The translations under genes and the position numbers were made by a program. The notes under the pieces are model-generated. The model saw only the letters and a list, made by a program, of their open reading frames with translations, made no database searches and was not told the DNA's origin. Below, piece after piece: positions 1 to 3,843 of a stretch of DNA of 64,000 nt; positions within the stretch are counted from its first letter, which is position 1, and the number at the start of each line of letters is the position of its first letter. This DNA is from Haplosporangium gracile (taxonomy: Eukaryota; Mortierellomycota; Mortierellomycetes; Mortierellales; Mortierellaceae). The stretch spans positions 17,862 through 81,861 of the forward strand of contig JAAAUF010000050.1 of the NCBI GenBank assembly GCA_015499985.1, read 5' to 3'.

Positions 1-2578
1 GGGTTGTGGCAGAGATGCCGTTCGTTAAGCCAACAAGCCCCAAAAAGCAAGCCCAGGGATTGATTGGAAATTTTATCGAGCTTGTTGTTGATGGAGTGGT
101 TTCATCGGATGACCGGAAGCTGTTGGGGTATTTATGCCCTCCAATCGAGGCCAAGGCCTCAGAGGGTGCCAATGATGAGCCACAACACTAGACTGATACT
201 ACCGTTGATGAGGATGCGGGCAAGTCCGACAAGCAGGTGAACTTTGTCGCGTGCTTCTTGCGGTATCTCCATTCGGGCAGGGTGCTTACAGGTCGAGGGG
301 ATGGTGCACTCGTCATCGAGTTTATTGAGCGTTTGAAGCAGCTCAGCTTGTTCGGGACACAAGCACCAGCTTCTTTTGGAGGTCAAAAGCTCAGATCCAC
401 TGAACTTGTCAAGGCCGTAGCCGCGCAGCTTGCGGTAGAATTTAAAAAGATGTACAGAAACGGTGCGCTTGAGCTGCAGGAACAGGTAAAGAACGCATTC
501 TAGATGTTTTTCATGGCCATGTATATATGTAACGTTTAGTATTATACACTCAAGCACTGTCGTTTGTTTATTTATTCTAATTTAGCTCAAGGCTCAGAGG
601 GAACGGGACCGCAAGTTGAAGCAGGGTAATGGCTCGTCATTGAGCGAACCGCTTCAGTCGGACAAGAACACTGAAGGAGTTGTGGAGGTGGGGTGAGGTA
701 AGGTCGAGCGAGTCCACACAGCACCAGCCGCTCAACCCGGAGCAGCAGCAGGAGTCGACCCAGCAGCAGCAGCGGCAGAAGAAGACGGCAGACGACTTGG
801 ACTTGGAGATCCACCACAATTGGAGTGCTGTAGAGAACTTTGTTAGGTTCAGCAAGTTGACGGGTAGTCCTCGACGATTCATTCCTATTTCCCGCCGAGA
901 GGACGGATTTGTCACCTTTTCGGAAAGAGAGCTGCTCGTGTTTTTCTGCGACCAATCTTTGCTGGCAAACAAGATCCGGAACCTGCCAAGGATGAGTTTC
1001 CGAATGGTACTGCTGTGACCGACTAAGAGAATTGGGGTAGAGAGTCAGGTTCCGGGGTATTTGATCAGGATCTTTCTCTCCGATCTCAACACCGATGGCC
1101 TTACGTCGCGACAGAAAGGCAAGGCCGGGTACAGAGGTGCCATCAAATCTTGGAGTTTGAACCGGATCAAGGATTACCTCAGAGATCTCGCACAAGGTAT
1201 CGTCAAGCCAAAGGACCATACAACAAAAGGATACTTATTGCAGGGCTCAATTCACTCCGATGGCTTGGAAATTCAGCTTGTGGCTTTCAAGATGAAGGAG
1301 CTTCAATCCGCCAGATTCAAGCGTGTACCAGGAGATTGGTTGCCCAACGACCGATTGACATCGATTGTTTCCGGTGTGGACTATTTTCTAACGGGGATTC
1401 GCAACGTTGTCAAGACCAAGGAGGTTGTCATGAGATTCTGGCCACAAGAGGGATGTGACCCGGAGCAGGTCGAGAGCCAGGAAGATGTTGATTGACTGTG
1501 GTCGCAGGACGCGTACGATCCGGAGAAAGATCAAGATCCTGTATATTAACCTCAATTAGGCGTGCGTTGTTGGAGCCAGTGGTCTACTGCCGGATGTGCA
1601 CTGGGTTCCGACAAGAAAGGAAAGATGAAGTACCCCGATCAGAACACGAAGGGCAAGATAAAGGCCGTTTCAACTTCTACTGCGCCATCCTCCGCTGCGT
1701 CGTCTGAAGACGCAAGTGTTGTGGAGTACCTCAAGGAGCTGGAGTGTATTCAGGATCGACTCGATGACTTCTACAACAGGGACCATATGCGGCTCAAGAG
1801 ACATGGATGGGATGCTAGCCGGCGCGCGAGGAAGAGTTCAGGACCATTGCTCATCGCCTTCTTGGGCTAGTTAAAGGATCTATCGGAGCAAAACGGACCC
1901 GAAAAATTTGGTCGCTATTAGGATTGGACTTGGACAGTTCTCCTGCAAGATAGAACTCACGTCTCTCCATGGGACGTTCATGTCGTTCTTTGTACAATTG
2001 GTAAGCTCTATTCAACTTCAACTTTGGTGCTTGTACTTTGTCACCTATGCTACCACTCGTCAATATATTAATCTTCCGCATCCATTTTGCTCTTTTTTAA
2101 ACCCGGTCATTGGGATACGTTATCGTTGGGATTAACGAGTTTTAATACATCGAAAAAATGTCCGACATGTTTTAGGTTCGTCTGCCAGGTCAATATTCGG
2201 CGGTTGTATTGTCCAAACTGCGAGCAGTTTTTCTATTGCGATATAATGACGGCGCACAACATGTGTACTATCGTCAAGGACCATCTTCTACATCAACGGT
2301 GACCCAAGTATCTCTAGCCCATCGATAAGAACGGTAACTATCCCTGAATGGAGGATGACGGTAGCAACAGTAGTCCGGAGTCACCAGCCAAGGACCCTAG
2401 GACCGATGCTGGTATTATACCTGTCCCGGGTTCCAAGAGATGCAAGCTAATTGACGATGCCGAGCACAGCTTGACTCCTGTGCATGGTACCAAGAGGCGC
2501 CAGCTGGAGGAGGAGGAGGATGTCAAGCCCTCCGTACAAGCTTCCGAGGAACCTAAATTGGAGGATCCAACACTTTAG
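1..2578 (+). pseudogene. Decayed Fanzor (eukaryotic TnpB-like) nuclease gene
   Basis: Fanzors are eukaryotic relatives of TnpB, RNA-guided RuvC nucleases carried by mobile elements. The conserved C-terminal half is still readable across frames. A RuvC-I-like stretch lies at 1542-1580 (INLN, stop, ACVVGASGLLP), where families normally have an Asp in IDLG. 'GLGQF...LTSLHGTF' follows at about 1920-1975, and 'RSLGYVIVGINEF' with the RuvC-II Glu is at 2104-2142. A zinc ribbon (CPTC 2159-2170, CPNC 2210-2221) and RuvC-III 'CDIMTAHN' (Asp at 2240-2242) follow. Upstream, 6-485 joins 586-693 through a phase-0 intron (486-585). Lesions include in-frame stops at 189, 1016, 1557, 2300, 2315 and 2342, frameshifts near 690, 1560-1700, 1830, 1900 and 2141, and an intron (2001-2100) ending AA instead of AG. 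It probably starts upstream of the window. The family call is strong; non-function is nearly certain. Confidence 0.82.
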
Positions 2579-2771: not shown

Positions 2772-3843
2772 ATGAGACTCAAGAGGACAAAGGACTACAA
2801 GCGGTACATGAACATGTACTGCCAGACATTTCATTTCCGCAAGCCCTACCAAGTCCTTGGTAATGCCTACAGCCTTTCTTTCTTATGTTACCTTTTGGTT
2901 ACTGTGTCAACGGGGCGAATATGTTGATTCAACTTATGCTGACCTACATGCTGTCATCATTCTTTAATGATATAGTCGACGCGGATTTCATCCAGACAGC
3001 ATTGGATCAGCGCATGGATCTCAGGACAAACATTCCCAAAGTTCTCAGTGACGCTTCCAAACAAAGTAAGTTTCACTTTGGGAGATTTTCAAGGATGCTG
3101 GATCATATCGATCGTTCAGACGAGCAAAGCTAATTTTCACGTTCTTCCTCTTTACGTTTCTAGTGGTGACACCATGCACGATGGCATTGCTCAAATCCCG
3201 TGGTGAGGACGCATCAGGAGCCTTCTTGGCCTCTAAGCGATTCGAAAAGCGTCGCTGCAAACACCAGGAAGCCGTTGACGAAGACATCTGTCTCTCGCAA
3301 ATTATCTCCACCTCTAATCCTCATAACTACGTCGTTGCCTCTCAATCCAAGAAGCTTCGTTCAAAATTCGGTCAAGTCCCCGGTGTGCCACTCCTCTACA
3401 TCAACCGTTCCAATCTCATTCTTGAGCCTCCTTCGGATGCCAGCATGAACAAGTGTAAAGAGATCGAATCCGGAAAGACACATGCTTCGACCAAGGAATT
3501 GGCGACCCTGAAGACCGTCAAAGTGACTGGACAAGGAAAGGTCACGCTCGACGTCAAGGCCGCCAAGAAGTTAGAGGAGAAGCAAGAGTCCAAGAAGCAG
3601 AAGCGGGAGGTTCAAAAGGCCAAGCTGCTGAAGAAGCGTATGGGACCTAAGGAGCCTAACCCTCTCTCGGTTAAGAAGAAGAAGAAGGTTGTGGCTACTC
3701 CTGCAGCAGGAACAGCAGCAGTAGCAACAGTAGCAACAGTAGCAACAGAAAAGAAGAAGAAAGCCGAAGACGAGAGCGCAGACGGAGCACTGGAAAAGAA
3801 GAAGAGGAAAAGAAGAAAGTCAAAGTCTGCAGGCGCCAGTTAG
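2772..3843 (+). CDS. UTP23: UTP23, rRNA-processing PIN-fold protein
   Basis: UTP23 is a nucleolar SSU-processome factor needed for early cleavages of pre-18S rRNA and snR30 release. Exons are 2772-2859, 2976-3065 and 3164-3843; all splice sites are GT-AG and phases agree, giving 285 residues. The start MRLKRTKDYKRYM, then FHFRKPYQVL, is the family's N-terminal signature. The PIN-like fold continues through the second exon (VDADFIQTALDQRM) and 'PHNYVVASQSKKLRSKF...GVPLLYI' in the third. A Cys/His cluster (CKH near RRCKHQE, then DICLS) fits the Utp23 zinc motif. The last 90 residues are Lys/Ala-rich with nucleolar-type basic runs, somewhat longer than in yeast (254 aa). Its ATG lies only 193 bp after the Fanzor relic. 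Confidence 0.9.

Follow-up and report, generated by a model that had tools for sequence, protein, structure and literature searches.

The window is a stretch of 64,000 nucleotides (C630:17862-81861) from Haplosporangium gracile (Mortierellaceae), whose genome comprises 37.5 Mb in 1,157 contigs. The analysis confirmed that the stretch ahead of UTP23 is a decayed copy of a Fanzor-like mobile element. The features are given below in window positions, except for the first.

L009:5178-6171 (C630:16039-17032): FEN1/EXO1/XPG-like domain and linker of the same gene, upstream of the window (domain coordinates)
1..503, plus strand: remnant of the Fanzor-like N-terminal half (REC-like region), with an in-frame stop at 189-191 (tblastn with P0022)
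788..1495, plus strand: REC/WED remnant, including the TDG equivalent read as SDG (tblastn with P0020 and P0022)
1520..1600, plus strand: RuvC-I remnant, with Asn instead of the catalytic Asp, then a stop at 1557-1559
1702..1707, plus strand: deletion site, about 224-269 bases gone relative to four paralogues (spacing of paralogue blocks)
2128..2302, plus strand: RuvC-II (GINEF), TNB zinc ribbon and RuvC-III (CDIMTAHN) (PF07282; alignment with P0020)
2303..2578, plus strand: remnant of the C-terminal tail, with an open frame at 2348-2578 and a similar tail in C928
2622..2661, plus strand: conserved right end of the element, with a 33-bp core and unique flank from 2662
2772..3843, plus strand: UTP23, a host gene outside the element, with its ATG at 2772 (Fcf1 E 1.4e-24, UTP23_sensor E 8.1e-7)

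The first-pass annotation had given the relic a span of 1..2578, which was too short on both sides: the actual start precedes the window by about 1,820 bases. Protein similarity began at about window -1822 (tblastn). Residues 1-199 of the relative P0022 aligned to -1822..-1214, residues 88-300 to -1569..-829, residues 445-495 to -414..-274 and residues 587-736 to window 42-491. DNA similarity to other copies ran from C630:17500 (about window -361, where contig C1022 ends) and ceased at window 2661-2665 in C1022, C652 and C928. The relic is at least 4.4 kb long. Its right end at 2661 lies 110 bases ahead of the UTP23 start codon, just upstream of that gene as the annotation had claimed. The left neighbour is a cytochrome c1 gene on the minus strand (Pfam E 2.7e-46), so the relic, with UTP23 on its right, lies in the upstream DNA shared by two genes that point away from each other. 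Beyond cytochrome c1, and on the same strand, is a catalase-like gene (Pfam Catalase E 9.6e-12; L009:612-1904, minus strand). A tblastn search with nine long homologues (E <= 1e-4) returned no further pieces of the element past window 2700.

The annotation had also read a C-terminal Fanzor/TnpB architecture in the order RuvC-I, bridge, GINEF, zinc ribbon and CDIMTAHN. All of these were present except a distinct bridge, which was not identified. GINEF is encoded at 2128-2142, TSKKCPTC from 2147 and CDIMTAHN at 2237-2260. A better match to another zinc-ribbon family had been named as the outcome that would speak against a Fanzor. In window 2072-2299 the best zinc-ribbon profile was TNB (PF07282; E 0.001, 19.6 bits, under the cut-off of 26.3), and the runner-up scored 15.1 bits. 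The long relative P0020 matched the relic with 200 bits (E 8e-56, 31% identity; tblastn). RuvC-I reads LDxGQA in most relatives.

The coding frame is broken throughout. Premature stops lie at 189-191, 1493-1495, 1557-1559, 2300-2302 and 2315-2317, each at a position that is a sense codon in one or more relatives. These are five stops, not the six or more counted earlier, since some stops called by eye were out of frame behind a frameshift; the multiple frameshifts stood. In a comparison with four paralogues, five small frame-breaking indels at 1500-2150 were private to the relic; indels before 1500 are less certain because most paralogues end short of that region. One frameshift separates GINEF from TSKKCPTC, and the stop at 2300-2302 follows. 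The blocks flanking 1702-1707 are 253 (C1022), 224 (C652), 233 (C928) and 269 (C880) bases apart in the paralogues and 0-5 bases apart in the window. As present in C652, the deleted block carries a conserved NLAVKQKAV...LPPL stretch. In the XPG part, the relic has at least two frame changes, and the last catalytic Asp was replaced by Gly (NGY for NDY).

Copies of the element and their ends

The proposal that Fanzor-carrying elements were once active in this genome agreed with the abundance of related copies: the TNB profile gave 35 matches at E <= 1e-3, 32 of them above the cut-off of 26.3 bits. Close copies with 82-89% DNA identity to the relic were found on four other contigs. Over the aligned parts, identity was 88.7% for C1022, 87.4% for C652, 89.0% for C928, 83.6% for C880 and 66.6% for C343, and the REC/WED remnant shared 86-89% with C1022 and C652. 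The TNB scores of C1022 (35.2 bits) and C652 (28.3 bits) were above the cut-off. In the pieces of these copies that were examined, the frames were split too. The expectation that intact relatives exist elsewhere in the genome was borne out by C129, whose intact gene encodes 1,335 residues; its model matches the deposited H. gracile protein P0001 (BGZ47_000819) with 100% identity over 97% of the model. A second, degraded Fanzor-like fragment lies in opposite orientation 3 kb upstream of this gene (C129:1-570, L027:1-570).

Homologue searches scored about 8,000 candidates each, and a number of matches were unnamed metagenome proteins. Among the named protein matches listed (120 of 153 in the largest search), no family besides Mortierellaceae appeared; we take the matched genera other than that of H. 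gracile to belong to this family. Two family members are deposited under misleading names: P0025 as Elongation of fatty acids protein 2, and P0027 (C578, H. gracile), a prefoldin plus TNB domain model, as subunit of tubulin prefoldin. In Linnemannia hyalina, P0010 and P0029 have consecutive locus tags (KI688_007301, 007302) and both carry an XPG part; P0029 has no TNB match.

The 33-bp right-end core occurred 25 times in the genome with up to 3 mismatches, seven times exactly, and the reversed control occurred 0 times. Past the core, the copies end in CCAGCC-like, TGTAACC-like or TGCTTTC-like sequences by subgroup, followed by unlike flanks. The right end was absent in C880 and weak in C343. 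At 13 of the 25 core places the contig breaks off within 25 bases on the element side, which would fit a repeat collapsed by the assembly. Seven contigs (L036-L042) share an identical core; on the element side, six of them end no more than 21 bases from it and the seventh within 80. This pattern suggests a young, collapsed subfamily that is absent from the assembly.

At the left, C841 and C508 carry a 20-bp inverted match (19/20) to the right end, about 180-200 bases ahead of where the XPG part starts. Because the right end of the C841 copy falls outside its contig, this match was scored against the common form of the right end. No inverted left end was found at the expected place in the nine other loci (2 of 11 positive), nor was an inverted match found at the left-end place of the window relic. 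In C508:10629-11653 (L043/L066), the left end, the XPG part and the right end are present and the Fanzor-like part is gone, as in an internally deleted copy. The 9-mer CTGCTTTCA flanks the C129 element, with one occurrence at L027:3361, ahead of its putative left end, and one at L027:8174, at the right end. At the corresponding right-end place, other copies of the C129 group carry CTGCTTTC or a near variant of it, and the flanking 9-mer may be element sequence rather than a target-site duplication. Insertion just ahead of gene starts was also considered and was unsupported: ATG frames were no longer near right ends than farther on, with a median of 59.5 aa for those starting up to 250 bases from a right end (32 right ends) and of 62 aa for those starting 600-850 bases farther on (n = 31).

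Two nuclease modules and their class

Intact relatives seem to combine a FEN1-like and a Fanzor-like nuclease in one large protein. From the N terminus, the module order in the family is a FEN1/EXO1/XPG-like nuclease, a disordered linker and, at the C terminus, a Fanzor1-like part. The first module had escaped the first-pass annotation because in the relic it falls before the first base of the window. The N-terminal part has the predicted fold and the acidic catalytic set of the FEN1/EXO1/XPG 5' nuclease superfamily, and it matched RAD2 by profile (E 9e-8). The XPG_I match of the C129 piece reached 22.2 bits, slightly under the Pfam cut-off of 24.9. The acidic positions presumably correspond one-to-one to named EXO1/FEN1 residues.

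Conservation was counted by column in 126 proteins (34 + 4 + 88), partial ones included and gaps left out; the 88 were among the matches listed in a search queried with the Fanzor-like part alone. Seven XPG catalytic positions were almost invariant across divergent copies. Mobile elements often acquire extra genes, and the XPG activity is predicted from sequence and fold; the domain could accordingly be a functionless passenger in the element. We consider this distinctly improbable, given the invariance of the catalytic positions and the place of the XPG part inside the left end in both copies in which that end was found (C841 and C508).

Across the genome, 30 XPG matches fell in 23 places. 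At 14 of these, a Fanzor match lies 1.25-3.7 kb downstream on the same strand, among the Fanzor matches listed; simple arithmetic gives a chance expectation below one. Of the nine places left, C472 and C360 continue into the linker and the Fanzor-like N-half, C508 passes directly from XPG to the right end, C44, C416 and C855 lie at contig ends or at most 700 bases away, and C675, C236 and C922 make up the rest of those with no listed Fanzor partner. Among the 126 proteins, 58 have both modules (XPG first in all), 67 have the RuvC part alone and one has XPG alone; 62 of the 67 gene models with the Fanzor-like part alone are shorter than 1,000 aa. By splice prediction, in-frame splicing spans the XPG-Fanzor junction in C129. 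Read by eye, the first introns of C129 and C472 interrupt one and the same aligned Asp codon between its first and second bases; C472 is a distant lineage, and its copy contains an in-frame stop. The second introns, also read by eye, agree in phase and are both located close to the linker start, at a place that cannot be aligned exactly. A near-full structure model of the fusion had moderate confidence (pLDDT 69.5).

The fusion is known from gene models and splice prediction, and with so many proteins Fanzor-like alone, the relic might be an ordinary Fanzor1 copy beside a separate XPG-like gene that gene predictors wrongly joined to it. The same order and strand at the 14 listed places, the splicing over the junction with a first intron shared by C129 and distant C472, and, in C841 and C508, a left end that precedes the XPG part make this explanation very improbable. 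We favor one gene, in which both modules are probably read from a single transcript.

In the Fanzor-like part, the RuvC D-E-D set was almost invariant. A DPG motif in RuvC-I was described as near exclusive to Fanzors (Yoon et al. 2023, PMC10711439). Most of the Mortierellaceae family lacks it: DLG, DGG or DAG stands there in 111 of 121 proteins (L 59, G 29, A 23) and DPG in 6. The same paper gives an alternative glutamate six residues before the zinc finger as a Fanzor feature and names a TDG motif in the WED domain for Fanzor1. The glutamate is present in 72 of 84 aligned proteins, and the TDG motif is well conserved (T 114/124, D 94/124, G 122/123), reading RTDG in C129. The C129/P0001 protein also fits the Fanzor/TnpB pattern D-X(125,275)-[TS][TS]-X-X-C4 zinc finger-X(5,50)-RD (Bao and Jurka 2013, PMC3627910), with TSKK preceding the C4 finger, RD following it and the D 226 residues upstream. 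As a regular expression, both parts of this pattern were found in 18 of 38 proteins; the rest were partial, lacked a part or did not fit.

The scarcity of DPG could mean that the family is a separate TnpB-like lineage that entered the fungal family on its own and is not Fanzor proper. In line with this, phmmer of the C129 protein against solved chains gave no match named Fanzor, only weak ones to LaTranC, TnpB-like protein L79 and GrpE. Against it stand the alternative glutamate, the TDG motif and the Foldseek search, whose seven best matches were all Fanzor1 structures. We hold a separate lineage to be unlikely and read the C-terminal part as Fanzor1-like. The counts then suggest that a whole fungal group has been missed by the DPG fingerprint for recognising Fanzors.

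Proposed mechanism and known systems

We believe, with a probability of about 0.8, that the stretch represents a Mortierellaceae element, now dead, with a single gene for a two-nuclease protein, composed of a 5' nuclease, a linker and a Fanzor1-like part. This explanation is based on the relic, its right end, the module order, the predicted folds, the catalytic residues, the copy number and the spread. From these we infer that both activities, homing and mobility belonged to the living element.

The guide RNA of known Fanzor1 has a 3' end that corresponds to the flank beyond the right end of the element (PMC10432273). With its conserved right end and unique flank, the place in this family would fit such an origin, and a guide RNA may have arisen from the right end. 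RNA structure there was weak, which counts against this: the RNAalifold consensus was -0.98 kcal/mol with 6 pairs, one of them with a double change. Among hairpin segments chosen by eye and compared with shuffles, those of 6 of the 17 non-window copies reached the 0.05 level; that of the window copy did not. In the proposed mechanism, the Fanzor-like part would bind an RNA that originates in the conserved right end and uses the adjoining flank as its guide. The guided nuclease would cut a matching site without the element. Judging from its fold and catalytic residues, the EXO1/FEN1-like part could process 5' ends or flaps at the cut, or its R-loop, and such processing would favor repair that copies the element into the cut site. 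It is conceivable, though doubtful, that these form a class of eukaryotic elements that spread themselves and have no separate transposase. A single protein would then cut under RNA guidance with its Fanzor-like part and resect or trim the cut with its EXO1/FEN1-like part, and repair would copy the element in.

Fanzors are eukaryotic RNA-guided nucleases. A large family that fuses such a nuclease to a structure-specific 5' nuclease, with both active sites conserved, would point directly to cut processing as part of the element life cycle and offers a testable system. Fanzor itself is already known; the fusion is apparently undescribed. No description of a FEN1-like and Fanzor-like pairing was found in the literature, although the 2023 Science Advances survey of Fanzors may mention it, and no paper was found that links Fanzor or TnpB with Mortierella, or Fanzor with XPG.

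Fanzor1 proteins are known from Spizellomyces punctatus (SpuFz1), Guillardia theta and Parasitella parasitica. The family described here differs from them in its N-terminal FEN1/EXO1/XPG-like nuclease and in having mostly DxG other than DPG. Most Fanzor1 proteins have 600-700 residues and a relatively conserved organisation, with the RuvC insertion of PpFz1 as the notable exception (PMC11423790, 2024), whereas the fused proteins here have about 1,200-1,350 aa; that of C129, with 1,335 aa and an additional nuclease domain, departs from both. The words fused and FEN1 are absent from the main text of that paper. The MuDr-like Fanzor1 elements of Mucorales (ROr-4, PBl-3, MCi-4) are similar in being Fanzor1 elements of early-branching fungi with inverted ends, seen here in C841 and C508 out of 11 loci; they encode no MuDR transposase (Bao and Jurka 2013, PMC3627910). 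The passages on them in that paper report 9-bp duplications, which were not established here, and do not mention an XPG domain. With the EXO1/FEN1/XPG (RAD2) superfamily, the N-terminal part shares the predicted fold, the acidic catalytic set and the RAD2 profile match; it differs in its identity of only about 15%, its fusion to a Fanzor-like nuclease and its place on a repeated element. Academ-X elements are DNA transposons with an XPG-like domain and a DDE transposase and no Fanzor. As generally described, they share with the present family an XPG-type nuclease in a mobile element, which is paired with a DDE transposase in Academ-X and with a Fanzor-like nuclease here.
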